Below the pieces are notes generated by a model. That model ran no database searches and had not been told where the DNA came from. It saw nothing but the letters and a program-made list of their open reading frames with translations. A stretch of 64,000 nt of DNA from Sclerodactyla briareus. Taxonomy: Eukaryota; Echinodermata; Holothuroidea; Dendrochirotida; Sclerodactylidae. The first letter of the stretch is position 1, and every line of letters starts with the position of its first letter. The stretch spans positions 268,501-332,500 of the forward strand of contig JAODTK010005867.1 in assembly GCA_026419785.1 (NCBI GenBank), read 5' to 3'. Positions 1-43,040 of this stretch are shown piece after piece. The translations under genes and the position numbers were made by a program.

Positions 1-1
1 A

Positions 2-16
2 GGGGGGGGGGGGGGG
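2..16. repeat. poly-G tract
   Basis: Fifteen consecutive G at the left edge of the window. It may be longer in the genome because it touches the window end. Confidence 0.9.
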
Positions 17-303
17 TCTGCAGTGCCCTTCTGGTCTGTCGTACCACTTTAACAATGGGATGTACGCAAGCTGTGGGCGGGAATTTCAAATAGGCAATGG
101 AATAAGGAAAACAGTTATGTGTCGCAAATGAAATGAGCCCTAAGTATATCAGCGATCTCTGATCGTTCACCGAAAATGAACCCCAATTTAAAAAACAACA
201 ACATAGTTTTCCTCTTTTTTACTCCCCATAAGATAGCTGCATACCGAACTTAACGTGATCACAAGGTTTTCATACTTTGACCTTTCTTCTTGATGCCTTT
301 TAC

Positions 304-483
304 CTGGTATAAAATACAATAGAGTTCATGTACCCCCAGTCAACACCAAAAGTAAATGAACCGGGCTCTTGTACCCATGAGACACACTCCACATCCTGCT
401 TGATCGGACCATGGTCTAGACTTATGGTGTTCACAAGGATTCCGGACTTGACTTCTGGTGACCTCAGATAACACTTGACCTGA
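304..483 (-). CDS. candidate internal exon, unknown protein
   Basis: I do not recognise the protein. On the - strand a pyrimidine-rich acceptor ending TTCTACAG precedes 180 bases open in one frame, followed by the donor CAG|GTAAAAG. One base completes the incoming codon, 59 codons follow, and two bases remain, so the exon is symmetrical (phase 2 on both sides). The peptide has the mixed composition of a folded domain: a C-Y-L start, then SLDHGPIKQDVEC, then a W/F/Y-rich end with SFTFGVDWGYMNS. Two cysteines are visible and there is no hydrophobic segment. No partner exon was found with certainty: the next 500 bases to the right are microsatellite and noncoding. It could be a chance open stretch, but the coincidence of both splice signals with the frame makes a real exon more likely than not. 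Confidence 0.5.
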
Positions 484-540
484 CTGTAGAACAAAATGGA
501 TAATGTACTTATTATGGGGAATACACATACCGAGTATTAG

Positions 541-572
<32 letters not shown>

Positions 573-585
573 CACACATATATAC

Positions 586-649
<64 letters not shown>
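541..649. repeat. CA then TA microsatellite
   Basis: A (CA)n run passes into (TA)n interrupted by single-base phase breaks (TATT, ATAA). It is a low-complexity array. Confidence 0.97.
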
Positions 650-2435
650 CCGCGTTAGTACATAGTACATATTAGTAAGTTTCGCAAATAAAAATCGTGT
701 CCAAATATTCATTAGATACCGTAATGTGTTAACTTGGGTAAATGCCTGTCGTAACCATAGATAGGTCTGAGCAAAATTACTAATACCTTATAGTCAAATC
801 AGTATCCAAGGTCCTGGTGGAACTACTTATACACTAGTCTGATAATCGGCTGAACCGCTACATGGCTACAGCTGTAGCCTACATACGTACGTCTCACGTA
901 GTTATAGTGAGAAATAATGTTATCGTGTAAGAATATGGACTAACGTTATAACATATGTATTGATAAACATCTCATGACTGGGGTTGGGTTACATATGAAC
1001 GAACTAATATTCGTTCTACTTTCGAGACGGCCTTGATTCTTGTTCAGGTGTTCCAAAATGTCCAAGCTTTGCTAGTTCCCCGTATCCGAGTTCACTGAGA
1101 ATCAATCAATCTGAGCGCAAAACCTTATTTACGTATCGGGGTAATAAATCATCGTACATATCTAGAGCCCATAACCGACTATGAATGAGATACAGGTCAA
1201 ATTTTCATTCTAAATTCTCATCGCGATAGGGCTATTCCACCTAACGTGGTAACACGTCAGACGGACGAGCAAATACCGACATACCGTCGGAAATATCATG
1301 CGCACTCGATCGAGCCGGATATGTTCCTTTTTTAATGGTTACGAACATCGCATCTTTATAGAATATTCAGCAAATCAAATATTATCTTACCACGGGTGAT
1401 TGATCGGTCTATCAGATGTCATTAGAATGAAAAATCAACACCTATGTTCAATGTTGTCCTCACGACGTGAATCACCTCATCTGCCTTCTCTCGAACTAAG
1501 AGATAAATGTTGAGAGGTCTTCCGAAAAATTTGCTGCAATTCGTCGGACTATCCTAAAACCGTATTCAATAATGAGGCTCGTTCTAAACGTACTTGAATG
1601 CGGACACGTGAGCATGTGAGTTTATCAGAATATTGATTGCAAGACAAGCACGTGTATGAATCGATGCGCATATGTCAAAAGCGCATTGTACTAGCAGCAT
1701 GAATTCGAACATCCACCCGAACATATGAAGAAGAAAAAAATACCCCATTCATTGTGATCAGGGCTAAACTTTTTCGGACCGTTAATGTGATTTTCACTGT
1801 GTAGCTATCAAGATTCGAATATCACGAGGTTGGTAAGAGAACAAAGGGCCGCTTTCATGATGAATCAGCTGCTACCTAATTCAGAACGAGTACAGTATGT
1901 TCCTCATAACTCAAAATACGTTTCACGGAGTTATGTAAGACGTCACAAGAAAGAAAGAAATGCAAAGTAGCAACAGACGAATCTGAATTGTCTTTTGCAG
2001 CTTTTCAGGGCAACAGAAATAAGAAAAAAATAAAACTGAAATCTTTATTAGCGATGTGATTATAGCACCGTTTGGCGAGGACCACGGTTATATTAGCGCC
2101 AATAGATAGTGTCTCATTCATGGTGATTATTATTTATCTGAGGTGTATTCGGTGCCATTTGTGAATATTGGTACTGTACATCATTGTGATAACTATTATT
2201 GACAATTAACGCCCTAACCTTGCGCCAACCCTCTTCTTATACCTCTCAATATCGAAAACCTGTTGACTCCCTGGTAAGTGTAGAGTTCCATTCACGCACG
2301 CATATAATCTTTGAATTCGAACCACGTCCGTTAACTAACCCCACAAATCTCTTAGTAGCCGATTTTTTCCCCTAAATTCAGCATTTTGCTTCGATTCCAA
2401 CTGAGAATCAGCGGGGAAAATCCTCGGCCGAATTG
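650..2435. other. no gene seen
   Basis: Unique-looking AT-leaning DNA. No open frame of note on either strand, no array and no match to another part of the window that I could see. Confidence 0.5.
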
Positions 2436-2439
2436 GAAA

Positions 2440-3480
2440 ATTGTCGTCTAGAGGATCGTTTCATTAAACCGTTCGTGTTTACATTCTCTTCCGACTGTCA
2501 GGGGGTGTTTGAATCCCCGGTGATTACGGGAGGCTTATTGCACTTCAATCTCACGTTTCATACTAGCAGAAAGAAGCTACTCTCGTGTCGACAGAGCATC
2601 TCGGTGAAGTCTGACGTTAACCAACATTCAGCCGCGGTGGCCTTAATTCGAGCAGCGTGGCTGGAACACCATGGAAGAAACTGAATGGAAATGTAGGCTA
2701 ACGAGACTGACTTTGGTCTGGATTGCCCTATTCACTTCATAGCGCAGGCGTACATCGAGTATCCCTATGAGAGTGATTGCAACAGTCAAGTGTATTATAC
2801 TCGCATTTGAAGATTCAGCTTTCGGCTCATTGACTTAGCGCGGAAGAATTTGAATTGCTCGCGTCGGCTGGGCATCATTCGTCAAAGAGGAAGACTGCAG
2901 TTACGTTGCATGGATTGTTGTTTGTGCGTACACGGGCGAACAACCCAAGCAAATTTCACGATATATATATATTGAGCATGTTGTGCATGTTCGCAGCATA
3001 ATTCCAGACATTCCGCGTTTTTACAGCCTACACGTTGCTTTATACTTTACACCTCTCTAGCAGCCTTCACAGATGCAATTATCATGCTCTGTGCATCGCG
3101 CTGATGATATGCAATCAAACCGATGTTCGTTAATTAGAAAGGGATATGATCACTGTGACTCTATGATCGCATTTGGAAAGGTTGCTTGTGGTGAAAGCTA
3201 AAAGGTGGCATGGAAGGGCGATCCACAACGCTTTGATATTTATCGCTCAGAAGTTTACTTACCGTTCGAGGAGTCTTATTGAGGATATTTATTGTCCCCC
3301 CCCCCGTCTTAATCCCCATTCGTGCTTGATCCTTCCACCTGATACGACGGTAATCAGCAGCGAATCGTCACAGTAAATGCATTAGACAAAATACCGTCGC
3401 GACTTTTGGACAGATCGGGTATGCGTGTGATTAGAGAATCAACAATGCATGAATACCGGCATAAGTACCAAGGAAGTATG
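2440..3480 (+). repeat. dispersed repeat family alpha, copy A
   Basis: Matches 20373-20760 plus 21258-21760. Shared blocks include GTGTTTACATT followed by CTGTCAGGG near 2480-2505, GTGTATTATACTCGCATT near 2790, and GGTATGCGTGTG near 3420. An 83-codon open frame at 2433-2684 crosses the left part but is not kept in copy B, so I do not call it a gene. It is probably an old transposable element of at least 1 kb. Confidence 0.75.
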
Positions 3481-3484
3481 TTGA

Positions 3485-5085
3485 TGAGTGACGTCAATCA
3501 CTACAGTGATACCTGATACCTCCTTAGTTTTTCAACCTGCGTTGCATAGATTATTACTGGTATACCGAGAGGTATGCGTTCGCTTATAGACTAAAATAAT
3601 TCGAATTGTGATAACAATGAAACCTCGTGGTCGTACAATATCAGGCCGATGAAGTATAAAGTCGTTAGGGAGCAACATTCGACTTGATAGTGGCGTCGGT
3701 AATGTGTCCCGAAACCCGCTCGAGCAATTTCACTTACCTCCGAAGTCTAGAAATCATTTATATATCAATAACGTCTCATCTGAAAACTTGTTTGTGATGC
3801 ACAGGACATCGGACTGTTTCATTCTGGATTCGTTCTCTTTGGACATCGCTCACTTGCAATAAGGAGTTCACACCTTGGTAATTATGGTATCAGTCCTATA
3901 AGTGACTTCTGAACGAAAAAGAAAAAAAAAACCAGAGAAGTCGGAATCTAAAATGGTCAACACTGATGGTCACGAGGAACCAACGTGGCAGTGTAGTAAT
4001 AAAAGCAAACGCATTGTAGAAGCTGTACAAGAATGAAATTCGCATGTACATTCGCAATGAACTCAAGCGTATTTGAACAGCTACGCTATTCACATTGCGT
4101 ATGATCTGTTTGTTTACTTGTATTCCTTGGTTCATTGACGAGTTCTGTCAACAAGCTCATAAGCACAGGTCAAGTATGGATAACGTACCGTTGGTTTTGG
4201 CTAGTGACCAACTTGACTGGCTATGCACATATAGATAAACTTTTCGCACTGACGGTTGTGACTGGAATATGGTATATAGATGCACACGTCAACATAATGG
4301 GTCATCAACAATCTAATAGGGACTCGTTCTTTCGTGTCGATGATTTATCTTGGGTGTGTACGCGTGGAAAATCGGATTCATTGGAATAAATTCCCATTGA
4401 ACCGGGCTGTGGCTGTGGAACCAAGCTGGGTTTTTTGTGTAGGAGAGCTGATATCCACCAAAGCCAAGATGCAATGGTTCATATAATTTGGTTAATCCTC
4501 ACTGGAAAAAGGATTATTTATAGTGACAGAGAAAAACAGCAATTGGTTAAACCGGAAGTCTCCATATACAGTTATCACATGTCGCCGTATGCTGTGACGT
4601 TTCAGTCTTGCAGTGGTGGTGTGTGTACAGACTCTTTCCGTGGTAAAACGAATAAAGAAATGTCACGGTGACGCGTAATCCATCTGATTAGAACAACCCT
4701 TCATGCATGATGCATGATAAATGAGTTGAAAGCTGCTTCTATTAAAGCGGTGTAGTCATCGCTAGCTAAAGGAATTGCTTTTTCAATGAATATCGGAATA
4801 TAGCTTGAAGGAGAAGCGATAATTAGGTACTGATTGAGGTCAGACCTGGATGCAATTTAAATGTATAACCAAGTCGTCCCAGAGAACCAGTTGGAATAAT
4901 CGCTCGTCAATCGTGATCTGTACTCTTGAAATACTCATTGGACTATGAAGAGGTTGCGTTGAATTTGCGAATAACTTAGTCAGCTGCTTGTGAATTTCAC
5001 TATTTCCTAAGGCGTATTCAGGAACATTTGTTGCAATTATAGGAGGGAATATGTATTGCTGAATGAATATTAGACGACCAGGGGT
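3485..5085. other. no gene seen
   Basis: Several 60-85 codon frames are present but none has convincing splice context or repeat support. ATGCATGATGCAT occurs near 4692 and again near 14842; I attach no meaning to it. Confidence 0.4.
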
Positions 5086-5113
5086 TCAGTTGCTGCAGGT
5101 TCGTTTTATTTAG

Positions 5114-5353
5114 CTTCGTGTTAGTGAATTCATGGAAGTCGGTGAATGTAACTATTCGGAGCCCACCATGGTCACTCCTCCTAGGGGTAACGGTGGGCCC
5201 ATCTGCCTGGTGTCTGGACCACTCCCAGAACGCCGCAGAAGTGAGCCAGCCCCCGCGCCTCCGAAACATCTCTTCCGCATTGATATCCGTCGGGTGAGCA
5301 TCGGACCCAACTTGGACCCAGATGATTTGCAGGCCGAGGAAGATCAAAATCAG
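5114..5353 (+). CDS. exon-family copy 1 (HLFRI motif), intact
   Basis: The function is unknown and I do not recognise the family. The frame is open for exactly 80 codons from an acceptor-like TTTTATTTAG, whose TAG would otherwise be an in-frame stop, to the donor CAG|GTAATA, so both ends are phase 0. The peptide is proline/arginine rich in the middle (GPLPERRRS), then PPKHLFRIDIRRVSIGP, and ends acidic (DPDDLQAEEDQNQ). Copies lie at 23.3 and 42.9 kb. Against copy 3, 24 base differences over 33 codons (5198-5296) fall 2, 2 and 20 on codon positions 1, 2 and 3, with only three amino-acid changes. That is the mark of protein-level selection. A candidate exon at 6042-6177 starts in the same phase. 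It may be a transposon-encoded exon or one of a dispersed gene family. Confidence 0.7.
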
Positions 5354-5359
5354 GTAATA

Positions 5360-6040
5360 TGCTTCCTTGTGCTTACTGCGCGAGTACGGTTCGGATAAAC
5401 TGGGAGGTTCATTTAGCTTGTCATGCACTACTGAAATTTGCTCGCCTCTCTGGACATTCGGAGAGAGCGATGGTTCTAGCGTTTGTCCTCCAAATATGCT
5501 GACCTTCTTCAGTCAAAGACTTCTAAGCACATTCGTTTCTTGCTTCCGTCATTCCAGGTTATTGTGTTTATGAGATCCCTACATCAACTCCGTTCTTTAG
5601 TAGAAGATAGCCTGGCAATTAAGATTACTATAATCTACGACAACAAAGAGGTCAATGTAAAGCCAGTTACAAAGCCGTGTAAGACCCGCACTCATTTAAC
5701 AATGTCTCAAATATCCCCATCAAATGTTTCAGCTGCTAGGAAATCGAAATATATTTCTTTAAATTGTCATTTGCCCGTTGCGTGCAGGTCACCAGATAAT
5801 CATTTTGCGACACTATTTTAGGCAATGAGAGCTTTATTTTGTTTCAGAATGCTTTAAAGAATCGCATCGAGACCTGCTATTCTCACTGTTATTGCTCAAT
5901 CGTTATTGCGAAGAGTAATAAACTAGAAAAATTAACTGGGTACTCACGACTCACATGTTGAAGGAAGGTTAAATCACTGAAAGTTAAATTTTATTCGGTG
6001 GGAATTCCCCGGATTCACATCATGTTGTAACGTCTTTATA
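5360..6040. other. possible intron, nothing recognised
   Basis: It lies between exon-family copy 1 and the next candidate exon. It contains a 112-codon open frame (5483-5821) with no recognisable protein features. Confidence 0.35.
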
Positions 6041-6041
6041 G

Positions 6042-6177
6042 AGTAACGTACAAATGGACAATTCCGAATCCTACCGAATAGTGATAGAAAGCGTTGATTT
6101 AGCGAACGCCATTCGCCAGAACCGCTGGCCGTACCCATGGTACTTCGGCGAGAACGTTCGTTACCTTCTACTGTACC
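6042..6177 (+). CDS. candidate exon, unknown protein
   Basis: The acceptor CTTTATAG is followed by 45 open codons plus one base and the donor TACC|GTAAGC. The peptide includes SYRIVIESVDLANAIR and a tryptophan/tyrosine-rich stretch (RWPYPWYFGENVRYL). The incoming phase is 0, which fits the outgoing phase of the exon at 5114-5353 some 690 bases upstream, so the two could belong to one transcript. No second copy of this stretch was found beside copies 2 or 3 of that family, which weakens the link. A chance open stretch is possible. Confidence 0.35.
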
Positions 6178-6473
6178 GTAAGCTCCTCAGCACATTTTGC
6201 TCTTTTATACTGCAAGTCAAACAGCGCTGTAACTCTTCAAACCGGCTCGCTTACAATCAAATGCAAGGCCTCTTCGAATATGTAGTTGTTTGTTATTCTC
6301 AATTCGGATCCTGTCGGAATTATTTCTGTGTTACGAATCCTTTACTATGTCCGATGATTACTATTTTCTGCCGTTACCGTTAATGTGGAAGGGTTTCGGT
6401 CCACATTGTTTGGAATTGTACTCCGTAACATATTGGTAGAAATCATGGTTATTGTTGTTAATATTGATAATCA

Positions 6474-6503
6474 TTAATAATAATAATAATAAAATAATAA
6501 TAC

Positions 6504-6543
<40 letters not shown>

Positions 6544-6612
6544 TAATAATAATGGAATGATGATGATGTGATGATGATGATGAATGATGATGAGATGATG
6601 ATGATAATCATA
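6474..6612. repeat. AAT then ATG trinucleotide microsatellite
   Basis: (AAT)n with a few interruptions is followed by (GAT/ATG)n. The translated frames here (runs of Y, I, H) are artefacts of the repeat. Confidence 0.97.
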
Positions 6613-6679
6613 ATAAAACACTAATCTAATAATAATATTTAAAAAATAATAAGAATAAATAATTATAGTATGATATAAT

Positions 6680-7900
6680 GCTATATAGCGTAAATCACTG
6701 AAGTGCTTGAATGGATACTCACGGTGTTGCCAGACATTTACAGCACGCATACAATCTATTACAATGCTAAGTCTGAGTGAGGCAAGTACGTCCCATGACA
6801 ATTATTTAGCTCCCATATTCCCTTCGAATGCTCTGAGGCGGCTAGGTTAAAGATACATGAGGACAACATTTCAAGAGATGGCGTTATACAGTCCTTGCGT
6901 CGAAACTCGATATCTTAATATCTATTCATGTACATCCGGTAATTGGTTAGTTGTAGCTGGTGTATTTCGTAATACTGGATTCTGTTGAAACATCGTCTTC
7001 ATTTATATTGGAACAACCCATTGCCATATCAGAGACCAATTTCGCCATGATCTCAAAATTATTGAATCACAGTTTCATGTTACAACTTGTTCTGCTCTAA
7101 GTAATAATGGAAATGAACCTTGTGATTCTGGATGCGAAATGATGGAATTTTGCCATTTCTCTGCTGAATGTTCAGTGAACAAAGTTAATGCAATCTCAAA
7201 ACTTTGTTATTTCAATTCATCGCTCGGAAATTATACCAAGAGATTTTTGACGAAAACTTTCCAAAAAAGACCGATAGCCCGGTTTCTCGCGAATAACAAG
7301 AGTGTTATGCTCACAACACAACACACATGTTGTGGAATCACCATTTATGCCCGCGCAACAAACATGTGCCCCCCCTTGTTAAATAGTAGAGATAAAATTA
7401 TTTCCACAAATGTTCGTGACGCTTGCCATCTGAACCAAATAACACTAGCGAATATATCCCCAATTGAATCTCAGAACACTTGGGTACTACGTCTTACCGT
7501 GCCTCAGAAGGGAACACCCCCTATTAACGCAGATCATCTGTCTCGGGAGCGTGCACAAATTAGGGGAGCAGGCAGGGTTCAGCCGGATAACAGAGCACTG
7601 TCACAGAACCCTTGAAATGGAAACACTTCCCACCCTCTCAATCTGCATGAGAATATGCTCGACTGGATCGTTCAATTATTCAAGATAACACAACTCCTCA
7701 AGATGTATGTTTTTGTGACGTGCCTTACGTTTAACGCATCTCGTTCTACGTGGTGATGCAACGATTGACGCTGGTTATGCGTATATGCCATCTACAATAA
7801 CAACGAAAGTTTATTAGGCCTCTGAAATATTATCTTCCCTTGGTCGAGCAGCGCCAGCAACGAGCAGCGCCACGATTAACTAAAGATATATTCTTACATA
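6680..7900. other. no gene seen; holds a 158-codon open frame
   Basis: The frame at 7139-7615 (+) is the longest in the window. It has no domain-like features or splice context, and its length is about what chance allows in 64 kb. Confidence 0.4.
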
Positions 7901-7904
7901 GCCT

Positions 7905-8230
7905 GATGAGCTACTTGAACATCAAACCACTGGGATCGCTTTTTGACGACAGATGCCAATCCCTAATTGACACCACTCATACGTGTAGTCGTGGACTTCA
8001 ACCTGGCGACACGTTAATTTCGTCGGCCGACCTTACATGAATGTCAAAGGCACTAACATCAATTACTCGCGCACACTCGATGCTAGAGATTCGACAAGTG
8101 TAAAGTCCTTTGATGACAAAAGCGTGATTAGTCAGAGCGTGCCGCTTACATTAACAAATTTGAATAGGTTCCTGTCATTATAGAGTGTGCTTATGGGAAC
8201 TGTGCATTTAGATTGGATATGGCTTAATGC
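7905..8230 (+). repeat. dispersed repeat family beta, copy A
   Basis: Matches 37195-37455 on the same strand. Shared blocks: GACACGTTAA, CACTA(A/G)CATCAATTAC, GAGA(A/T)TTCGA and CCGCTTACA. A shorter related stretch is visible near 13630-13720. Origin unknown, probably a decayed transposon. Confidence 0.6.
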
Positions 8231-9578
8231 CCCTATTTTATTCTGCCGTGTATAGGAGATCACCTTTGTCCAAGTCTATGTACATATAAAAATTAAAAAA
8301 AAAAACTTATTTGTTGCAACATGCGTAATTGACACAGGCACAACCCCAAGGAATGCTATGCGCTATGTTATATACTAGGACACGGTCGCCTATAACTGTG
8401 GTACGTATTGACATTAATGACTAATGACATTATCTGTAATGAGAATACGATTTGATGAAATAACCTGTCCCAAGATGATTATACAGGGCACCGTTTCAAC
8501 GAAACCACTCGATGAACATATTGATGACTTATTTGAGTATTGTGTACGCGCAGCTATACAAACATTGTGGTGGTGAATTGTAATACTTCAACTATTGGCC
8601 ATTGGCCTATCTGTCGACACTGTTTTGCCGTCTGCGTGTGATCACCTCATCCTCTTTTCATTCCCTGACGAAGTCAAGGAATCTTCAGTCCATGGCATTG
8701 TGATGGTGTTTATGTGTGCGTGTTGTGGTATGTTTGTTGTATGTACGTGAAGCCCAGCCATGTTACAACGATAACTCGACCTACCTGGATGGATGAAGTT
8801 CATACTTGGTATATGGGCTCTGTACTCATATAGGGAATATATATAGGGAGTACATGGTCCCCCATTGTCTGGACCAGGTCAAAAGTCATCTGAGGCAAGG
8901 GAAAAGGTCCGAAAATCTCGTTAACACGATGAGTCTAGAATGCCTGGTCCGATCAGGTTGACATTCAGTATACCTTTTTTATGGGCAGTACAGGAACCCT
9001 TTTGGTTTTTAGTGTGGACCGTGGTTGTTTTGGCAGAAATTCGGAAAATTGTGAGAATTGATATTTCAGCAAATTACAACTTGTCAAAACAACAACTTGA
9101 CCCCACCTAGATGGACGGAGCTCATCGTGGTTATGGGGTTTCCCCTAATGAGTACTGGATCCCCATTGTTTCATGGCCAAGTCAAATGTCTTGAGGTCGA
9201 TAGAGGTAAAAAATTTTGAAATCCTGTTGACACGATAAGTCCAGAATGTCTGGTCCGAACAGGGTGAAATTAGCATGCAGCTTTCTTATGGGGTCAGTAC
9301 CTTTTTTACGATTTTGTTGTAGAATAGGGTTTTTTAAAGACATTGTGGAAATTGTGATATTTTGGCCATTTTTAGTTCGTTAACGTGACAACTGGATTGC
9401 ACCTGGATGGATGAAGCTCATACATGGTACATGGGTTCCCTATAACGAGTATATGTCCCTTTTTTTAGATCAGGTACAAGGTTATCTGAGATCAAGAGAA
9501 GTCGAAAGTCTGAAAAAGCTTTTCAAGAGAATGCTGGTCTGATCAGGCTGAAATTTGGTATGTCGCTTTCTTATGAGG

Positions 9579-9616
9579 AATAAAAAAAATAAAAAAAATA
9601 AAAAAAATAAAAAAAT
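9579..9616. repeat. (TAAAAAAA)n microsatellite
   Basis: Several A-run units separated by single T, inside the 300-bp array. Confidence 0.95.
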
Positions 9617-9722
9617 TGTGAAAATTTGAACTGTTTATACACTGTACCAATGTTCGCTTGTTAACACAATGCGGTACTTCATACTTGGTTCGTGGGTTCC
9701 TCTTAATGAGTACATGCCCCTA

Positions 9723-9752
9723 TTTTTTTTTTTGGGGGGGGGGGGGGGGGGG
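9723..9752. repeat. oligo-T followed by poly-G
   Basis: Eleven T run directly into about 19 G, inside the fourth unit of the array. Confidence 0.95.
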
Positions 9753-10382
9753 TCAAGTTCAGCGGTGCATCTGGCACCAAGAGAGGTCAAAGTCTGATGA
9801 TATACTATTCCTAGCTTTACAGTATCTATATTCCCACAGATATTAACATTGGAATCGGAAGCTTGAATTCTCTGCTCAGATATCGTGACTGCCACACGCC
9901 ACTATCAAGTGACCTCATGACCCCATAGACCCATCGGGTCTAAATACCTCGGGCTCACATGACACAGAGCCACTACTGACACCAGTGTAATTGGTTCGGT
10001 CGTGATTTTATTTATTGATACGACCCTTATCACGTTGAATCTTATCAACTCAATGGAAAAAACCCAGACCATTGAACCTACAAATAGCTATGATGTCTCT
10101 GACAAGTCTTCTGTTAGGTGTCCGTGGTCAGCGTACAAGAGAAGATATTTTCCCACGGTCCGATACATCTCAAACGTGAATTCACAAAAATTCCCCTGAT
10201 CAACAGGTCACACCCGTACTAAACACTGCGCACATCTTGCTTGCTCACTGCACCCCGACGCATCATTCCAGTACGACATTTCATCATGCCCCCATTCCCG
10301 AGGAGGATCCTAATTTTACACGTGGATAGCGTGGTATTTTCAGGATACATGAATTGTCCAACAACACTGCCGAATCATCATC

Positions 10383-10459
10383 GGGCCCCCTATATGTTTC
10401 GAACTCGCAATTAATAGTTTCGCATTTCGAACTACTACCAACTGAGCTAATCATCTAGG
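10383..10459 (-). pseudogene. tRNA-like sequence (tRNA pseudogene or SINE head)
   Basis: On the - strand an A-box TTAGCTCAGTTGGTAG and a B-box GAGTTCGAAAC are correctly spaced. The acceptor stem pairs poorly and the anticodon arm has a 10-base loop, so I do not call a working tRNA. The flanking 180 bases to the left would be the body if this is a SINE; no second copy was seen. Confidence 0.6.
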
Positions 10460-10469
10460 CATATTTTAT

Positions 10470-12210
10470 GCCTCGAAATATACAAAGTAGTGGTGAGTTC
10501 CGCCTGCTAAAGATGTATTGACGACTACTCCTGAAACCTTCAACCCCTTAACCCTCAACCAAAACACAGCTTCTCGCTATTTTCGATATTATTCAAATAC
10601 TGCCTCTTGCAACACAAGGTACGTCTACTTTGCACATTTCTGCTCGGCCTCGATTACAATCACAGTGTCGGATAATCAAAGCCCAGACGATTTACTACGC
10701 ACTCATACCATGCCCCGTAGATTTTGGCCGAAGAAGCACACCTCCACACTGTTCATGACTTGAAATATAACAACACAGCAGGGCACAGCAGGGCATAATG
10801 GATATGATATAGAATATCTCGAAATCTCTGTGAATTCCTTGTATAAGATAATGACTTAAACACCCACTTCGAGTAAATGTTGATATCTCTGTATTTGCAC
10901 CCCAACCACTCATTTACCGCATGTACTAAACGTTTATTCATAAATTGTTTCACTGTTGTAATCCACCGCTAGCCTGATGACATGCTGTTTATTGTCGTTA
11001 TCTTAGGAAACAGTGAATGATAATGACGATGTCATTTCTGTGATATCACGCAGTTACTCAGTCATTTGTTTATTCTCTATTGCATATTAATAACTAAGAT
11101 AATTCTATAGTAAGAAGGTAAAAAAAAAAAAAAAAAAAAACGTATGTTTTAAGTATGGAATCACTCTTAAACTATTTTATTTTGTTCATTCATCGCAGGA
11201 AATTACTAATCATAAATGAAATCACTTATAACAGCATATAGAGCTCCCTCCTAAGGAACGTATGTTTTAATAAACGATGAGCTGTCTTGAATAGGTTCCC
11301 CTGTTATAACGATCACCCCGGGCTAACTAATTCCTGCCAATAATTTGATTTATACAAACGTACAAACCATTTGTGACGACTGGAAAAAGTGATCTTGTCT
11401 TTGAATAGTGGAACAAACTGACTTTCAGTGAGTTTACTATAATTGGGTCATCAGACCCAAATTCTTTTACCCTTGAAGCTAAGGGTTTATCCTTGCTGTG
11501 TGGTCAATTTATGAGTGCATGGTGATGAATAATGGTTACATACAGATCGAAAAGGAACATACTGTTATGTGAGAGTTCAAAAGTTAGAAGGTACATAGAA
11601 CATTACCGACCATCTCCCACCAAACCAGGTCTTCGTTGATCTCAGCAACTCTGTAGGTCTAATTTTTGTATTTCTTACACGCCAGATTCTAAACTCGTTG
11701 GAATCTTTTCGTTGTTTTTACACCAATTAGATGATGCAATTTTTCGTGAATGTCTCAGGGGGACATAGCTCATTATTCTACTTGGTGACTGCGCGCATTG
11801 CCAATAGGTTCCACCCGACATCAGCATTGCTCATTACCCTAACTTCTTAGAGGTTTAGTGACACTTCATCGATCAGTCCACCTGCGGGCTTCGTGCTCTC
11901 AGGCGTCTATACAACGTTGGGAGAAGAACCCAAATGGAATAGTACACACCCACACACAGTAGGTAGGTGCCACCTTATTTGTGTTGCGATCACGCCTTTG
12001 GAGCAGCGAGTAGGTCTTCCAAATTGTCTGGTGCCAGTAGCATGTTGTACAAGTCGTACATCCTATATAATTCGTGTTGGAAAGTCGTACAATCCCACTG
12101 AAAAGGCCAAGCCAATAAAAGTTGGTTTCTCCGGCGATCAAGGCAAACCTGCTTAGGGTCCTCGGAATGCTACGGGAGTATGCAAAAAATGACCATGTTC
12201 GGGGTTATAG
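10470..12210. other. no gene seen; poly-A at 11120-11140
   Basis: One 21-base A run. A weak exon-like stretch lies at about 11909-11970 (strong acceptor CTCTCAG, donor GTAGGT, about 19 codons) but it is too short to support. Confidence 0.4.
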
Positions 12211-12213
12211 TTA

Positions 12214-12327
12214 CTGATGAGGATGTGCGGTGCGCTGTCCATGATGTTCGTTTTTTTTTTTTTTTAGGCTGATGAGGATGTGCGGTGCGCTGTCCATGAT
12301 GTTCGTTTTTTTTTTTTTTTTTTTAGG
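12214..12327. repeat. tandem duplication ending in poly-T
   Basis: Two copies of a unit of about 55 bp starting CTGATGAGGATGTGCGG and ending GTTCG(T)nAGG. The T run is longer in the second copy, and unit length differs only by that run. Confidence 0.95.
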
Positions 12328-12988
12328 CTGATAGTGAGACCAAACACTTCACAGTTATATTCCAAACCGTTCATCAGCTGATGGAAAGCTTCTTGGTGTG
12401 GGCGGTGAGAGCGTGAATATTTTTTTTTTTTTTAATGAAACCTCTAGGCTAACGACGTATGAGTAGAACACGACTTCTAGTGTGACGTACACACGTGTCG
12501 TCATTCGTTCTTGGAAGAAAGAAGAGGGGATAGCAAATGGGGGCAGAAATTGCCCGAAGATGTCGGTGGGGACTATACAACACTGTTCCATTGTCTTAGA
12601 ATAGGGAATGGTCTGGAGGGCCGTCGGAGTTAAGGCAGTGTTCTGCATGTCTTCAAAGCACTTCGATTTATTATCTGACTAAGATGGAAGTATTCGTCAT
12701 ATCGAATAGGAATTGTTCAGTGGACAGCAACAGCTTCCATGCATTTTTCCTGCAACGTCAAAGCGGAACAAGATGTTATCGATATTTGATCATTTCGCCT
12801 TAAATCACACTGTGCCTCGGGGGAATGGCACACGTTCAGATGAAAAAAATTGCAGATGTTTAGAACGGCAGGTACAGGATTCCTTGTGGGGTGATATTCC
12901 ATGGTATTGGATTTAATCACTGCTGTCGCCTTGAACAACCAGAAAGACGATGGCGTTCTGGATGTTCTGTGGAGTCGCTTTTCCACAG

Positions 12989-13138
12989 TAATACAGTAGG
13001 ACGTAGCTCTGATGACAACTCTGAGAAAATTCCAGTATTTGCAAAGAGCCTTCTCGATATCGAGCGATTCCGTGGCTTTGTACAATGCATAGCAAAAATA
13101 TGGAACGTCGAGGTTCTGCACTGGCAGGCAGGAGACAG
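12989..13138 (+). CDS. candidate exon, unknown protein
   Basis: The acceptor GCTTTTCCACAG precedes 150 bases: one base completing a codon, 49 open codons, two bases, then the donor GACAG|GTGACT. The peptide is plausible (EKIPVFAKSLLDIERFRG, then a tryptophan-containing end) but matches nothing I know. This area is unusually poor in stop codons on both strands (a 134-codon frame runs antisense, 12717-13121), so open frames here are less informative than elsewhere. Confidence 0.3.
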
Positions 13139-13144
13139 GTGACT

Positions 13145-15945
13145 CGACAACCTGGATGGTATGTTTCTCATGAATAAAAATTCATGACATGGATCTGCCA
13201 TTGTTATCTGTGTGACTCGTTATTGTTATTTTTTAACTACAGAAGACTTCATGGGTGCGCTTGATAACACTGTCACGACATCGTACAGGCTACATGTGTT
13301 CCCAGTTGGAGAACAAGAATCGGAAACGAAAAGCGCTTAACGAATTGAATATAGTTTAATCTGTATTCTCGAACTAGTGGCTCAAACAGTTCTCCCTCAG
13401 TTGTAAGGCTCCCGAGTTCTCGTTATTCCGCTGCCTAACAAACTAGAAGAGATTCATTGCTTATTTTATTTTTTTCAAACAACAAATAAATAAAGAAATA
13501 AACTGATGCCAGCCGATGTTAATTCCTGAGTGGAAGGAAACGCAAATGGGAAAACACTTCGATTTCTCGCCATTGACTTTTCCGAATGCTGCGAAAGTAT
13601 ACAGAATTACTCACGCTGAATATTCGACACGCATAGTGTTCCCCGATGACAAATGCGTGATCATCAGGAACGTGCCTGCCGTCGCTTACAATTTTACCCG
13701 ATTAAAAAGGTCTTTGACTATTCACTTGATTGAAATGACAAAATGAGACCGAGTTATGGGATTCTGTGAAAATAAACTGATTGCCGAATACCGTACCATG
13801 TAAGTGATATCGACATTTGAAACATCTCTGTAAGCTTCATCCATAGGAACCACATAGGAAACATAAGACGGTATGAAATAGTTCGAATCGACAACTGGCT
13901 CTTTTCGTAGAAAATACTGTCATCAAGAGAACCTGTCATCAAGTTATATCTTTTTTAAAACAGAATCGGAAATAGAAGTAATTGATCATCTTCTCTTCCC
14001 TGAGAATTAATTTTTGTGAGGATGTGTCATATTTTAATGATATTACGCTAATATGAATAAACACATTCTAACAGTTTTTAACCACATTCTCAAGAAATTC
14101 TCATTCTGGGTAAGGCGACTTACTTGTTGTCCCTGTGATGGCACTCGAGTCGATTGCCACTCATACTAGAGTTTGAACATGCAAACCCTGAAAGTACTGT
14201 TGAATCGAAACGCAAAGCTCTCACTTGTGAGATTTTACTAAGTCATGAAGATCATCATTACTGTTCATTCAAGTGTTGTCCTCGCGTACTGATACTTTCC
14301 AAGAGACTATGATGTTTAATTTATTCGTACTACTTTCTGTGGTTTTTCTGTAATTAGCTACATTAACCCTAGTACCAAATACTAATCCATAGCCCTAAAC
14401 GAGATTATAATTGAGACAACACAATAGTGGGAACCACAGTATACAGTAACCTTCAGAGAGACAAAACACAGATAAAAACCTTCACAAAATCACGTTACGT
14501 GCTTCATTCAAGCAATATTTATTGCATGAATTTCTATTAGGATACCGCCAAAGAGGCATTGCCTTTTTCCGTGGACCTGGTGAAGGATCGGAGCTGACAA
14601 AAAGGTGCAGTATCCAGGTCTGCACCCTTGTTGGGCATTGAAAAGGTTCGATTCTTTGCTCGGCAAGTATACCATAGAAGAAAAAGTTGCAACCTCAGCT
14701 TCTCTTGGATAAATAGGTGTTTAGTATCAGTAGGTGCAAAATTATTTTTTAGTATAGAGCACAACCCTCACTGTCAGTTAAGAATGCGTTAGTAGTGCGG
14801 TTTATGAATCCTGAACAAATAGTGAGCTTATGGAGTATTTATGCATGATGCATAACTTTTCGGGATAACTTCCTATGAAAAAGACAAGTCTGTTTCTGTG
14901 TTCAATTGAATTATACGATACGTAGGTTAGAAAACAAGTAGTCTTTGTAACGACTTCAGAATCTGGTCAATAACATTCGAATAAGTCATATCGCCTGTAT
15001 GCCACACTAGTAGCCTCGATGGAAAATATCCTCTAGCGAGAGCATGTCATCCGAATTCAGGTCGGCAGAGAGCAATGCCTGAGTAATAAATGTCAATTAT
15101 TAACTTATAAATACGGCTATTTGACAGTATTCTCTTCATTTCAGGAGAAGAATACACACAGAACGAACGAGTTTTATGAAAATCGCTGATACGAAATGAG
15201 AATAGGTACAAGAATAAAGCTTAGTCTCCATTTTATCTCAGCAAAACAAGTTTTATGAAAAATAGATGATACGACCTGACAACTTGTGGTTGTTGTGGGT
15301 CGTCTACCATTTTTCTTCTTTTTGTCTGGATTTTTTTAATTTGCTCAATATCTGATGTATGTCGTGATTAACTAGATGCTGCAACTAGTACGGCTCTGGT
15401 TTTCGGACGCAAACTCTTCGAACTGTCATGGCAGCTCATAAACAATCGGAAATAACTCCCGGTATAGTAAAGCAGAATTTTTGCAAAGACACACATCACT
15501 AAAATAGGTCTAGGCTTCTAAAATCTTATCAAAAAGTGGAATCAAAAATACAAAATCAATCAAACTACGAGTCGTTGCCTTCGCAATCGTGTTACAGGCC
15601 TATATATAAACGACGCTTCTGTTCATTGAATCTAACCTCCTGAGGTGAAGAATAATTACACCGAGTCGTTAGAGATGATCAACATCATTGCAACAAGGTT
15701 GTCTAACCAACAGCCATTACAGTTATGAGGCACCGGGCTGTTTCACTTCGTTTCCTTTTGCGGAGAAACCCTTTTCGAAGTAGTATATTTTTACCTGAAA
15801 TTGAACTGAAGACTTTTCGACTATCAGTCGGCTGCTCTCACTCTCTCTCACACACACACGGAGTGTAGTCAGCCTCACACTATTCACGAGCACAATATAC
15901 TTGGTGTTTACGGGATGTTATTTGTTACTTGCTGTGCCAAGTATA
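13145..15945. other. no gene seen
   Basis: A 76-codon frame at 13516-13746 (+) overlaps a stretch resembling repeat family beta and is not called. The rest is unique AT-leaning DNA. Confidence 0.4.
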
Positions 15946-15949
15946 TTTC

Positions 15950-16330
15950 CATTGGTAATTGCAGCACCGTCGGTCAGCGGTTTCATTAAGAGTGTGGTAA
16001 TCTGATTGAACTGACACCGCGTCTTTGCCCTGAGGAACGGAATGCAACAGTAGCTAGCTGTCACTCGAACTATCCTCGCAAATTTCGATTGTGGCCTAAA
16101 TTAAATTACGGGGAGATACGTAGTAATACACCCCTCGTCTAGTTGATAGGGCAGCGCCGGGCAACCGGTTATCAGCTCCTGTATTCACTGAGAAGTAAGA
16201 AAACTCGGGTAAGTTCTTACAAAACGCTGCCTTTAAACCCGTCCTGTTAGGCGAACAGAAGTGACAACAGATCAATCTCGATGAATCATGGTGAGTGTTT
16301 GTGGGACTGTAGGGTTGACACAAAAGTGAA
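15950..16330 (+). repeat. dispersed repeat family eta, copy A
   Basis: Matches 31370-31740 in the same orientation. Shared: GTAATCTGAT, ATTGAACTGACAC(T/C)GCGT, GAGGAAC, TGTCACTC(C/G)AAC, then AATAAGAGAAAAC-like and CTTAC blocks. Confidence 0.65.
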
Positions 16331-16339
16331 GGTAAACGT

Positions 16340-17100
16340 AACCTTAATTTGTCATGAAATTTAGTAACGAAACGTTTAGATCATGAAATTACGTGCCTAT
16401 AGGCCTACAGTGTATTCCGTTTGTAATACAGTGCTTTTCCGTGAACAGTTCCTTGGGCACTAGAACACTAAGAACTGATCACAATTAACGATGGTGATGA
16501 AAGTAGTCGAACGAGTCCAACATGACATTCAAATCTGTTCCCTTGCCGATGTCGGAATCACGATGACCGGAGTACGGACCCTTGTACATCCGTTGATTCT
16601 TCACTCACCTTAATATCTCATCGGTCCCGAAGGTCATGTGCGATGTTGTAGTGCAGCTGTCAGTTCACACACTATCTTCCCTGTTTCTGGTCCATCATAA
16701 CACGGTTGCTATGGTAACACTTGTGGGTGTACCCTACGATGGGTGCTTGCATGAGTGTTGCATTATCCAACCATGAGGTGCACTGTGTGTGTGTTTGTGC
16801 GTATATGTGTCTGTCAGATTTTTCATGGTTTTTCTCCAAGTATCTCCAGTTTGGAGTGGACGAACATCGCAAAATTTTTTTTTTTTTTTTACACACTCCT
16901 AAATATTTTACAAAACATACGTTTTCTCTCACGATGTGCAGGAATTATTGAAATTGTGATATTTTTCCCAAGGGGACACATTCCGGGAATTTTTTTCATT
17001 TTCAGAAACTTTTCACTATTTGTCAAGATAATTGGAGATTCCAATAGCTGAATGTTTCCAAAATTTTACAACAAGCACAAATTACTCTTCCATGCAACCA
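16340..17100. other. no gene seen; GT-rich patch and T run
   Basis: A GTGTGTGT patch lies near 16785 and a T run near 16877. Open frames crossing them are low-complexity artefacts. Confidence 0.5.
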
Positions 17101-17105
17101 GCCGA

Positions 17106-17355
17106 AAATTACCAGAACTTCTTTCTGGATTTTTTTTTTAAGACTGATAGTTTCAAATTCCAGTACATAGTACAAGGTATCAAATTAGGGGTTCTCCTAG
17201 CATTTAGCTGAGAATAATGATTTGTCAGGGAAATTACCAGAACTTCTTTCTGGATTTTTTTTTTAAGACTGATAGTTTCAAATTCCAGTACATAGTACAA
17301 GGTATCAAATTAGGGGTTCTCCTAACATTCAGCTGAGAATAATGATTTGTCAGGG
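17106..17355. repeat. recent 125-bp tandem duplication
   Basis: Two head-to-tail units of 125 bp starting AAATTACCAGAAC. I see two base differences between them (CTAGCATTTAG versus CTAACATTCAG), so the event is young or the copies are being homogenised. Confidence 0.97.
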
Positions 17356-17504
17356 AAAACTGCTGTTTTCAGATCAATTTTCCCTATTTGCAACTTGCAA
17401 GGACATTTGGAGATAGAAACGAACTCCTGAGAATGCCCGTTGTTATTAGTTTTTCGAGCATGTTCGTCTGTTTATAGTTTGTCGTTCAAGTCTAACCCAT
17501 TTCT

Positions 17505-17830
17505 GTGGTTGAACTATCGGGGCGTTGTTACAATATTGTGATTTGTATCCTGTTTCGTTTCACCAACCCAGCAAAAAACATTTTACGATTCGTCAACCAG
17601 TTAAGAACCTGTAACATACCTCGACAACGGAGAGTCGATTTGTCCATAATAATAGATATGTTGCTCAGCCTGAAGAGAAGTATCAATTCACCACCTGAAC
17701 TCGGTTCAACAGTCATTCGAATTTTCTTGTCCTCTTGTAAACGTCTTAGTGTACTGATTAGCATATATCGTTGCTGGTAGGAATGGTACTCTGTCTCCTG
17801 GGCAGGATGAGTGTCACTGTGAAGCCTATG
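17505..17830 (-). repeat. dispersed repeat family gamma, copy A, with possible old ORF
   Basis: Matches 33440-33800. Read on the - strand both copies give related peptides: KIRMTVEP / TIRMTIGP, a MDK start of a second block, and FFAGLVK / AFPGLVK at the end. Copy A is open for 78 codons (17528-17764); copy B has two stops. This suggests a decayed transposon coding region, family unknown. Confidence 0.55.
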
Positions 17831-17834
17831 AGTG

Positions 17835-19465
17835 GGAATTTACTTCACTCACTTCACTGTCAATTGAACTATGAGATTTCGTGAATTCAACCCAGGCGAC
17901 TGCTGCAATTGCAAATCCTGGACATAGATATCGCGAATTCTTGGGATTGTTCGGTCATGTTGGTTTAGCGAAACGAGAAGCTCCAAAAATGATGATGTGT
18001 CCGGAACAGGGCCACAGGTTACTATATAGTGTCATCAACTTGAAATTCTAATCGCCGTAGAATACTCACCTACGAAGTCACAAGTAAGTCGTAGTAACAA
18101 ATTTGCAGACGAACTCGTACCTAACGATAAAATTAGGTTTAGAGGAAACTTTCTTCATCATTCTTGGTTTGTTCCTTTGTCCGCTTACTAAAAAATTAAG
18201 ATGTATTTTAACAGAAATATATATTGCGAAGTAGGGGCTATGCATTCGCGAAAGTTTCAACGTATTGAGGAATGCTCATCGCAAATTTGAATTAGAGTTA
18301 AGTACTACATTTCATAAATGCATTTCATACATGCATATTTAGCACATTGTGAAGGAAACTGCCAGACAAATTTCCTGTAACATTATTTCATACATTGACT
18401 CATCGACTGATCAATTAAGTAAATGCTGTAAAAAACATATTAACACGTGTCTGAAAGTGTTTTCACCTCATGAGGCGATGAGGCGGTACCAGAATCCCTA
18501 TTTATTCTACACTTGCAACCTCAAATCGTAATGAGGTCTGCAAAAGAGACACAACTTTGCTAAATCATCTTCACACTCGCTGAAAGCTCTTCTTGAGAGT
18601 TTGTTCCGCATTTCCTCGAATTACATGACGTACTCTCAAAACTTTTTTCGATAATCAACACTGCTGAGAGTTTTGCTCGCTCCAATTACATCGACTTCAG
18701 GGTTGATATGAATTAACACGAAACGCTCCCTAGAATTTCGACAATCCCCGTATTCTGAAATTATGAAGATAAAAAGTTACCCTACAATAATAGGTCTATT
18801 GTTAGATTTGCGAGGGAAGAAATACTGGAAGAATAACTAATATTGTTACCGGGACCCTCCACACGACACGGAAAATTGGGGAATTTGGATCAATTATCAA
18901 TTTAATGCTACTGAGGCGTCCTGATACCTCTCAAATAATGGCACCAATTAAACAGCAGAGATATTAAGTGAAACCGAAGCACGGAAAATATATAAAACTA
19001 ACTACTCTTAAATCCAGAACAAAACCCACGAAAACGAAACCGTAACACCCTCTCGCCAAGGCAGCCGGGACGACTCTACTTGCCAGAACAAACGGGGAAG
19101 CTCCGGTCGGCAACCAAACAAAGGCAGGATCGTCCCGCTGTCTCGCACAAAGGAAAACAGGAGGGATCAGCCGCCTTACAATGGAATGGGATGAAATGAA
19201 GTGGATGAAGTCCGGACTGCAGTGAAGGTGAACAATGAATGCAGGAATGGCACGTGAAATGGATGATTGATCATGGGAATATGAGTGAGATGGAAAGGCT
19301 AATGCAAAATATGGCCAGATGGTACTAATGGTAGGGTTGTGGTGAGCGGGATGGGGGTGGAGTAACAATATGTATACCTATATTTTAAGAGGATTCATTT
19401 CTACTCGAATGTCACTAATTTTTGGGATGTGTCCAATTACGGATTCTTCACTGTTCAATATATAT
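17835..19465. other. no gene seen
   Basis: A 134-codon - strand frame (18964-19368) exists only because the + strand there is purine-rich. No protein features. Confidence 0.45.
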
Positions 19466-19470
19466 ATATA

Positions 19471-19552
19471 GCCACTATGGAACAATTCCATAGTACGATT
19501 CGATACATAGTTCAGGCCACTATGTAAGATTCGACACCGTTTCCATAGTGGC
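19471..19552. repeat. inverted repeat, stem-loop potential
   Basis: GCCACTATGGAA at 19471-19482 is a perfect reverse complement of TTCCATAGTGGC at 19541-19552. Two more partial arms (ATTCCATAGT and GGCCACTATG) lie between them, so four alternating arms can pair in different ways. It directly abuts a tRNA-like sequence. Confidence 0.85.
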
Positions 19553-19624
19553 TTCATGATCCAATAGGTTAAGGCGTCCATACGTATAACGGGAGGTCCG
19601 CAGTTCGAATTTTGCTGGAGTCAC
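19548..19624 (+). pseudogene. degenerate tRNA-like sequence
   Basis: The 5' GTGGCTT and 3' GAGTCAC can form a seven-pair acceptor stem with two G-T pairs. A-box-like AATAGGTTAAGGC and B-box-like AGTTCGAATTTT follow in order. The T stem has only four pairs with an 8-base loop, so this is a tRNA relic or SINE head rather than a working tRNA. Confidence 0.5.
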
Positions 19625-21760: not shown

Positions 21761-21764
21761 TAGC

Positions 21765-23240
21765 TAATTGACGATTCAACCTTGAGATACACAACTCGTT
21801 GCCACTGTTACGTTCCGCGTCGCGAAGCCACAGTCTCTAACAATCCAAACTAAATTACGGAAATCTCTCCTCGGTATTATGTGTTATGACGGATACAGCC
21901 ATTCGCCAGCAAACATTACCTGAACGTAGTGCCAGTTGTGTTCTCTGATGAAACACTGGACACACCATGTACCCATACGTGGTATCAATAGTCCTGTGCA
22001 TTTGGCTAACTAATAAACTGATCACATAAGACAGTTACTGATGTATCGCTGGTGAGTCGCAGTCTGATAACGTTATTGCGGACTGTTACTAACTATATCA
22101 AGTCATTCCGAGCGTTGATGCAGTGCTACCCCGACATACCAATATTGCTATTAGGAAGTCAACTACGACGTGTCGAGTATGTGTTCTGGTTCGATCGGAT
22201 ATGTGCAGCGACAACTTCAGTGTTGCGAAAACACAACATTGGAACTTAATGGAATTAACACGTCTTTGATTCGCTACAATTTTTTTCTGGATAATACCTG
22301 TGTGAATATTTGTTCGTCTGATTGTCAATGAGCTTTGTTGACAAACTGCCAAGTGGATATTCAAAGCCTTCGAGTACCTCAGGTCAATCTCATCAGCATT
22401 CCAAAGAGTCCCATGATAACATTCTTGGTGGAATAATGGGCGCACAATATTGACCTCAAACGGATTGCTGGTCTTTTGATCAATTACCGGAGGTGACATG
22501 TTATCGAACTGTTCACATCCTGTTCACATGACTATATGCGAGTGGGCGGATGTCCTCTCAAGGTTACTTTGTACAAGTGTACATTCGTTGAGATACATGT
22601 TATACTGCTTGATGATCTGTGGTTCAGTAGATAGCAATCGGAGTAATGGGAATCATAGTTGGTTGAAGAGAGAGCCAATTGCTACCCAGTTGCAATCGGG
22701 TTTATACAACTCAGCAGGGCTACAGTATTGGTTTTGTTCTTCACGATTACCCGAATACATGAGGCCTTACATTCAGATAGATTGCACCCGCTGTTTGCCA
22801 CAACTATTAACGTCGAACACCACTAAATGTGTGATTATTGATATTTCGTGTCAGGATTGTAGGATGAAATAATGAGTATGTGCGCCTATGATAAATGGCA
22901 GGAATACATCTTGCCAAAGTTGAAAGAATGAATATCAGAAAACTGGTATTCAATTTGAATCTATAACCTGGCATTGCTGGATTCAGCGGGATATCACCTG
23001 TCAATCTTGTATGTTGCTACTGGAATATCTATTAGGGAATAACTAAGAATCATATATTTTTACCCTCACCTTACATTTTGAGGTTTTCAGGTAGTATCTT
23101 GCCCTGATAAGCATTATTCGAAAAGGATGCTTCAACGTCATGTTGGAACCTATGTAAGGAGTTTTGTGAGATCAGTGTTTTGCCTTTAGGAAATTTTTGG
23201 CAGCTGGTCCAACAATCCAGTTCCGTAGTAAAATCATGAT
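21765..23240. other. no gene seen
   Basis: Open frames of 124 (22498-22872 +) and 133 codons (22098-22499 -) occur but show no domain features or splice support. Confidence 0.4.
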
Positions 23241-23244
23241 CCTG

Positions 23245-23477
23245 TGAGTGTTCTCATGGAAGCGGTGATTGTAGCTGTGCGGAGCCCATCATGGTCACCC
23301 CTCCTCCTCCCTTCCCGGAGGTGGTGGTCGATCTAGATGTCGGTGTCTGGACCACTCCTGAGCGACGCAGAAGGATCCAGTCCCACGGCCCCGAACATCT
23401 CTTCCGTATCGATATTCGTAGAATGATCGTCGGCCCCTAGGCTCGGATGGTCGCAAGCGGAGGAAGACGAAAATGAG
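23245..23477 (+). pseudogene. exon-family copy 2, decayed
   Basis: Aligns with the exon at 5114-5353 from CATGGAAG and the GAGCCCA(C/T)CATGGTCAC block onward. EHLFRIDIRR is preserved with several synonymous changes, but small deletions break the frame upstream and a TAG stop lies at 23438-23440. The splice-donor position survives (GAG|GTAACT; GT at 23478), 82 bases after the histidine codon against 87 in the other two copies. Confidence 0.65.
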
Positions 23478-23499
23478 GTAACTCATATTCTCGTAGGGA

Positions 23500-24660: not shown

Positions 24661-24664
24661 ATCA

Positions 24665-25640: not shown

Positions 25641-25644
25641 GAAT

Positions 25645-31369: not shown

Positions 31370-31740
31370 TCTGTTATTAGTGCAGCAGCATCGGTTTGCA
31401 GTTCAATTGAGTCTAGTAATCTGATAATTGAACTGACACTGCGTGTATTGTCCCCGAGGAACTGATGAAAGCAGCATAGACGGATGTCACTCCAACGTAC
31501 GCAGTGGACGATTGTGTCTAAACTCAATTATAGGAAAACCCTTAGTGGAGAAGCATCTCTCGCAGAGTGATGAGGCAACACAGGGCAAATTTCATTGAAG
31601 AGCTTGTCTACTAAAAATCCTATACCGTTTGTCATAGATAACAAATCTGTGTGGAGAATATAGCCACGTAGCGTCCACCTGGAAATAAGAGAAAACGGGT
31701 TTATTTTTCCCGTAACACTTCTTACGTAGCACAGTTAAGA
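31370..31740 (+). repeat. dispersed repeat family eta, copy B
   Basis: Second copy of the repeat at 15950-16330, same strand; see the shared blocks given there. Confidence 0.65.
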
Positions 31741-33439: not shown

Positions 33440-33800
33440 CAAAATCTCGGCTAGTTACAATGTTGCGTGTTTGTACATTCGATTTTACCAACCCAGGAAA
33501 AGCAGTGTACTATTTGTCAATCAGCTCTACACCTAACACCTTATAAGGTATCCTACCACGGGAACTAAACTTGTCCATATACGATCGAAGGGTTACGCAT
33601 CTTTGCTTGACCTAGTTAGAAGTATCAATTGACCACATCGGCCCGATAGTCATCCTAATTGTTCTGTCCTTTGTAGACTCTCTTATCAATCGCCTGTGGA
33701 TGGTTCGCAAGTGTCATGGAATCCGCTGAGCTCCAAGATGTGTGATGTACTAGAATCGTGTCGTATACAGCAACCAACAGGGTGAGGAGTCACACTGTAA
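33440..33800 (-). repeat. dispersed repeat family gamma, copy B
   Basis: Second copy of 17505-17830. On the - strand the related peptide is interrupted by two stops. Family unknown. Confidence 0.55.
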
Positions 33801-41876: not shown

Positions 41877-42849
41877 AGTCATATTCTTTATATGACAACA
41901 TACGATCTGCGAATGCCACATGCCAATAATTGCATACCGTTTTCCGAACTCGCTGCGTTTGGCCTTGAAAATCGCGTATTGTTATCGAACGTTTTATGTA
42001 CAACCGCAAAACCTGCCGGTCATGGACATATGGAACTCTAACGAAATACAGCGGGAAAAAAGTATAAGCTGATAGCAGCTTTCCACTTTACACTGACAAG
42101 TGTATGTCCACCACATCGCAATATCACGGCTCTGAGAACAGATGACATAAAAATCTAATCAGTTTTTTTTGTAATAAGCTTCTAGTTTGCCTTAGCTCGA
42201 CTTCTTCCACAGATGGGAGAAATCAATACTAGTCAGACTAAAGGAGACCAGGAGTACGTTGAATGATTAGGTAATGAAGAACGTAACGGTAAAGAAAAGT
42301 ACAAGTAAGCTGTTCTTTGCTCACGTGATATCAGTTCCTCGTAGAATTCGCAACGGATGGACAGTGCGGTGTACAATTGTATCTTCCTTGATATATGGAG
42401 TGGATTTAGATTATTTCCAGAAAACCAAACTGGTTACAACCACGCCTGGAATGTTGCATATTGAATAACGTATAGAAAAGGTTTTCATTGGTTTACTCAC
42501 TTCGGGTAATGTAGAAACGCTGCGTCAAAACTAAGGAATGGTATCTGTTATTACCAGAGGATTGTCACACCCACAATGACATAAAGTGTCTGTCCGCTTG
42601 TCACGTTATTTATCGACTGATATTCATGGGATTGAGAATCGCTCATATACGTTATTCTACGATTCACATTCGGAGACGGTGGATTTATTAGGATAACGAT
42701 TCATATAATTATTCGCATATTTCTGACGTGTGTCTAACTTCTATACCTGGTGCCCATTGGATCATCAACCAAACTGTCGAGAGGACCTTTTCAGTTACTG
42801 AATTAATCAAGGTGAGAGACCACATGGATATCGGGGAAGGAAAATGTCG

Positions 42850-43040
42850 AGCTACCTGGTCACCCCTTCGCGGGTGGTGATCGACCCATATGCCTGGTCT
42901 CAGGACCACTCCCGGAACGTCGTCGCAGCGATCCCGCGCCCCGACCGCCGAAGCACCTCTTCCGTATCGGCATCCGGCGGGTAGCATCGAACCTAACCTC
43001 TACCAACTTGGTCGCCTACCGGACGAAGCGGCGAACGGAG
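42850..43040 (+). CDS. exon-family copy 3 (HLFRI motif), open
   Basis: From 42885 the frame is open for 52 codons to a donor (GAG|GTAACG, GT at 43041), phase 0 as in copy 1. The peptide GPLPERRRS then PPKHLFRIGIRRV matches copy 1 with three substitutions in 33 codons, against 17 codons changed only synonymously. After IRRV the two copies lose protein similarity but keep identical length (60 bases) to the donor, consistent with a compensated pair of single-base indels. Upstream of 42885 the alignment to copy 1 needs a one-base gap, so the first part may be frameshifted. Whether the copy is expressed cannot be told from sequence. Confidence 0.6.

Follow-up and report, generated by a model that had tools for sequence, protein, structure and literature searches.

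Three tandem copies of a coding exon, two of them damaged, were identified in a 64,000-nucleotide stretch of the genome of the holothuroid Sclerodactyla briareus (contig JAODTK010005867.1, positions 268,501 to 332,500; hereafter the window). The copies of this exon (E), named A, C and B in their order along the window, lie in the same orientation, each has a GT donor, and they are accompanied by the ordered shared blocks P, X and Y. The encoded peptide was under purifying selection for a long time after copies A and B had separated. The finding is a modest one, a small and old tandem exon triplication, and it demonstrates that the comparison of paralogues within one raw window can reveal a real exon that is absent from the family libraries tried. 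A preliminary description of the window had proposed a multi-copy exon, and three copies were indeed found; the coordinates are given in Table 1.

Table 1. Exon copies, shared flanking blocks and dispersed repeat, with positions counted from the first letter of the window.
Feature	Position	Strand	Remarks
Exon copy A	5114..5353	+	ATG at 5168; 62 codons; core 5198-5296
Exon copy C	23240..23477	+	ATG at 23291; apparently decayed
Exon copy B	42812..43040	+	core 42885-42983 uninterrupted
P1	2396..2986	+	apparently noncoding; ends 2.1 kb before A; 62% to P2, 58% to P3
P2	20369..20773	+	ends 2.5 kb before C; matches P1
P3	34459..35021	+	ends 7.8 kb before B; matches P1
X1	15960..16164	+	apparently noncoding; downstream of A; 68% to X2
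X2	31381..31588	+	downstream of C; matches X1
Y1	17516..17748	+	apparently noncoding; downstream of X1; 65% to Y2
Y2	33444..33685	+	downstream of X2; matches Y1
Dispersed repeat, about 290 bases	20947-21242, 25360-25648, 44412-44543		1720 first-look places genome-wide

The three copies are in different states. In copy A, a Kozak-type start (GCCCACCATGG) is followed by the open codons up to a phase-0 donor (CAG/GTAATA). Within this copy the similarity to C begins at 5116 and that to B at 5120, and its 5' edge may be either an acceptor or a transcription start. Copy C, which aligns with A over 253 columns at 71% identity and with several indels, also has both start and donor, but with a stop: its ATG is positioned as in A and MVTPP, PERRR and HLFRIDIRR are all found in one frame, HLFRIDIRR is followed by an in-frame TAG, and the donor (GTAACT) is in a different phase. 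To all appearance, copy C is decayed. Copy B has a donor and no in-frame start within the exon; CTG, out of frame with the core, replaces the Kozak ATG of A. It is open for 52 codons from the core start to a phase-0 donor (GAG/GTAACG), and its tail past IRRV is in a reading frame other than that of A. Each of the three copies has a GT at its corresponding end, and the donors of A and C are aligned.

The cores of A and B align without gaps over 33 codons, and 24 of the 99 bases differ, 2, 2 and 20 of them at the first, second and third codon position, respectively, which exactly reproduces the figures of the preliminary description. A codon count also confirmed its 17 silent changes and three replacements (E/D, A/R and D/G) among the 20 differing codons, leaving 30 of 33 residues identical. 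The excess at third positions was pronounced (one-sided binomial test against 1/3, p = 6.6e-7), and the Nei-Gojobori method returned a pS of 0.68, a pN of 0.07, a dN of 0.074 and a dS of about 1.8, the latter close to saturation and hence imprecise, with a resulting dN/dS of about 0.04. When the differences of the A-B exon (74 in 228 alignment columns) were permuted, taking the best window and phase in each trial, none of 2000 permutations matched the observed z of 5.2, the maximum being 3.5. Ten control pairs of duplicated sequence from the window, presumed to be noncoding, gave phase-bias p values from 0.012 to 0.91, two of which were below 0.05 (0.012 and 0.038); in the same comparison, the A-B core scored 1.8e-8, the whole A-B exon 2.1e-4 and A-C 0.044. 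The permutations, the low dN/dS and control p values of at least 0.012 uphold the earlier claim of selection on the peptide after A and B had separated. Many copies with a dN/dS well below 1 had been named there as supporting evidence; the low ratio was obtained for the A-B core, and three copies were found.

The bias between A and B is restricted to the core. Differences over the whole exon are distributed 17/17/35 by codon position and those outside the core 15/15/15, and copy B carries indels in the flanking exon stretches. Between A and C the distribution is 14/11/23, a weak bias that is no stronger than that of the two lowest controls. The case for selection depends on the comparison of A with B, that of C alone being insufficient. 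Changes specific to one copy amount to 1/1/4 in the core of A, 1/1/11 in that of B and 4/3/6 in that of C, and this fits a scenario in which C ceased to code before B. A dS near saturation together with the identity of 30 residues suggests that selection acted on B over most of its existence and that its damage came late, and, with two copies no longer intact, selection covers most of the history of B and not necessarily the present day. The longest open reading frame over copy A lies on the minus strand (5018-5512, 164 amino acids). Antisense coding was nevertheless rejected, as the variable sites would, by arithmetic from the coordinates, fall on first codon positions of that frame, indicating that the plus-strand frame is the selected one.

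No family matching the peptide of copy A was found in Pfam, PDB sequences or PHROGs, in agreement with the earlier statement on its core, and an Rfam scan of the window contributed nothing toward the identity of the gene. Sequence relatives were sought in the animal's own genome (319 Mb in 3171 contigs) and in viral and prokaryotic contigs, where 41 and 591 matches to a pattern of the peptide were obtained, respectively, none of which was confirmed. AlphaFold, run on the single sequence of copy A without an alignment, predicted two short helices but no fold (pTM 0.16), which is weak evidence; the peptide is probably an unstructured N-terminal tail. It contains RRRS and RRVS, which we take to resemble basic-directed kinase sites. 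A downstream exon or domain was not apparent among 136 plus-strand open reading frames selected in the 210 kb that follow the window, which gave no convincing Pfam match (best E-value 0.0016, with a family named for phage integrase at 0.045 in the same list), and by eye the longer frames in the following 50 kb (contig 542501-592500) showed nothing obvious. Pfam searches with the 146 longer open reading frames of the window recognised no mobile-element domain (best E-value 0.0012). Given so many scans, these values of 0.0012, 0.0016 and 0.045 are at chance level. The PDEase_I profile of Pfam had no match in the genome, and since controls were equally silent this search was uninformative; short, separated kinase matches fit a eukaryote with introns.

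Several other features were observed in and near the window. Its longest open frame (6989-7612, plus strand, 208 codons) and a GC-rich open frame of 88 codons located 1.9 kb past copy B (44933-45196) both had no convincing Pfam match. A diverged pair at 52677-52825 and 62581-62730, 69% identical with one gap and with a phase-bias p of 0.012, may perhaps be a decayed transposon reading frame. In the stretch upstream of the window (L004), the minus-strand peptide at 1552-1854 resembles, by eye, the terminal part of a non-LTR reverse transcriptase.

For self-comparison the window was split into three stretches (1-18200, 18201-37800 and 37801-64000), which were compared on the plus strand under lenient settings. 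The blocks follow one another along the window in the order P-E-X-Y, P-E-X-Y, P-E; neither X nor Y was recognised after copy B. Direct matches between P2 and P3 and between B and C were absent at E<=0.01, these being linked through P1 and A, respectively. At E<=1e-3 there were no minus-strand matches between the three stretches, and none appeared in 60 comparisons against simulated sequence with matching dinucleotide composition. An inverted X-like stretch is located about 134-256 bases before the window (L004 9744-9866; 66% over 128 columns, E 4e-10). P, X and Y look noncoding: their alignments contain indels of any length, and as exons they were rejected because codon-phase bias was absent (p = 0.21 for P1-P2, 0.086 for P1-P3, 0.44 for X and 0.86 for Y). 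In the genome, X1 matched itself and X2 only, missing the inverted stretch, and 101 bases of P1 as well as the whole of Y1 matched only themselves, Y2 being missed. These misses indicate that the genome search overlooks partners of about 60-66% identity. Judged from the matches obtained, P, X and Y are not high-copy repeats. Neither tblastx nor the self-comparison of the plus strand revealed a second coding-like block clearly common to the units; tblastx also paired units 2 and 3 weakly at 24731-24805 and 36110-36184 (25 residues, 52%, minus-strand frames), which could be another shared exon.

As the best explanation we propose, tentatively and with somewhat less than even confidence, an old tandem duplication of the 5' part of a gene, which gave rise to alternative first exons of which two have since decayed. 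A segment of roughly 14-20 kb, comprising P, one coding exon and the intron part with X and Y, would have been duplicated in tandem twice. The Kozak-type ATG, the terminal donor and the lack of a second shared coding-like block suggest that E may be the first coding exon, and the order P-E-X-Y, again with the lack of such a block, suggests that the duplicated part was the 5' end of the gene. P would mark a putative promoter or 5' leader. Spliced onto common downstream exons, the three copies would have served as alternative first exons. Their peptide would have been selected in at least A and B, and C would have lost its frame first and B next, leaving A as the working copy. Several observations count against this explanation, namely the distances of P from the copies (2.1, 2.5 and 7.8 kb), the third unit without recognised X or Y, the inverted X-like stretch, the marginal A-C bias, the missing in-frame start of B, the links of B to C and of P2 to P3 that run only through A and P1, the weak tblastx pairs between units and the fruitless search for a downstream exon or domain; our confidence is lowered in particular by the irregular distances of P and by the inverted stretch. 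The process looks like ordinary local duplication rather than the work of a mobile element. If the alternative first exons are real, the death of an exon beside surviving noncoding blocks can be traced in one locus. A further-reaching and rather unlikely version is that the gene is lineage-restricted and has no known relatives, that its N-terminal peptide (with the two basic-serine sites RRRS and RRVS and the KHLFRI core) was diversified by an ancient triplication of promoter plus first exon, and that P, X and Y were retained for a regulatory role, outliving two of the exons.

A doubtful but serious alternative is that three whole genes lie in tandem, two of them decaying, and that E is the only exon still recognisably similar. 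The gene-like length of the units, the damage to B and C and the weak tblastx pairs between units would all be expected then; noncoding blocks can still be aligned at 57-71%, yet apart from E nothing coding-like is conspicuous. We regard it as unlikely that the copies belong to one large gene as internal exons used alternatively, of the mutually exclusive type, between constant exons. A and B can be read through the exon with no ATG required, both have the same length of 156 bases between the start of the core and the donor, and near the 5' edge every copy has an AG in the same alignment column, all of which count in favour; however, 73 bases separate this AG from the core in A but 68 in B, so that the phase differs, and both A and C contain a Kozak-type ATG. 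That the copies are conserved noncoding elements with an accidental reading frame would agree with the sharing of P, X and Y without a coding signal, the damaged frames of B and C and the weak A-C bias, but is very improbable in view of the strong three-base periodicity that the A-B core shows in the frame uninterrupted in both copies.

The search of the genome with the peptide of copy A returned three matches from three candidates, which are A, C and B, grouped within 38 kb on the plus strand of a single contig, 18.1 and 19.6 kb apart; as the first look of this search can miss whole families, more diverged copies may exist elsewhere. A query with the frame of B recovered B and A, not C. The power of such searches is illustrated by the dispersed repeat of the window, which by its length and copy number we judge to be SINE-like: 40 of its first-look places were scored, and the longer matches were 72-84% identical. 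Its ready detection suggests that a sizeable dispersed family of E would probably have appeared as well. The preliminary description had considered that the exon might belong to an active transposon lineage or else to a dispersed gene family, and several copies with a selected coding sequence are indeed what a transposon lineage would leave, but this reading, to the extent that the genome search is sensitive, appears mostly refuted and hardly credible, with only three copies found, all in tandem and in the same orientation, while the DNA search did reveal the other repeat at 1720 first-look places, and with 146 open reading frames free of recognised mobile-element domains. A tempting transposon reading of the exon is thereby corrected.

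Among known systems, tandem gene duplication followed by pseudogenisation likewise involves tandem units with one intact-looking copy and two damaged ones as seen here, and the present case differs from ordinary tandem gene duplication in that a single coding exon was recognised per unit. Exon arrays of the Dscam type are compact. One account describes the mutually exclusive exons of Dscam as arranged in tandem arrays (PMC1397879); the tandem arrangement is common to both, whereas the copies of E are spaced 18-20 kb apart, the start codon lies within the exon, and no flanking constant exon was found. UGT1 and the protocadherins are described as tandem clusters giving alternative first exons (PMC3325998, PMC1885805). 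Compared with UGT1, the clustered protocadherins and GCNT2, the locus described here has three copies, two of them decayed, its common exons and promoters are putative, and its peptide is short, probably unstructured and without a match in the searches run. The likeness to these systems lies in similar exons that share one orientation, all three matches forming a tandem array on the plus strand, and in an upstream region for each exon, block P preceding every copy as a putative promoter.
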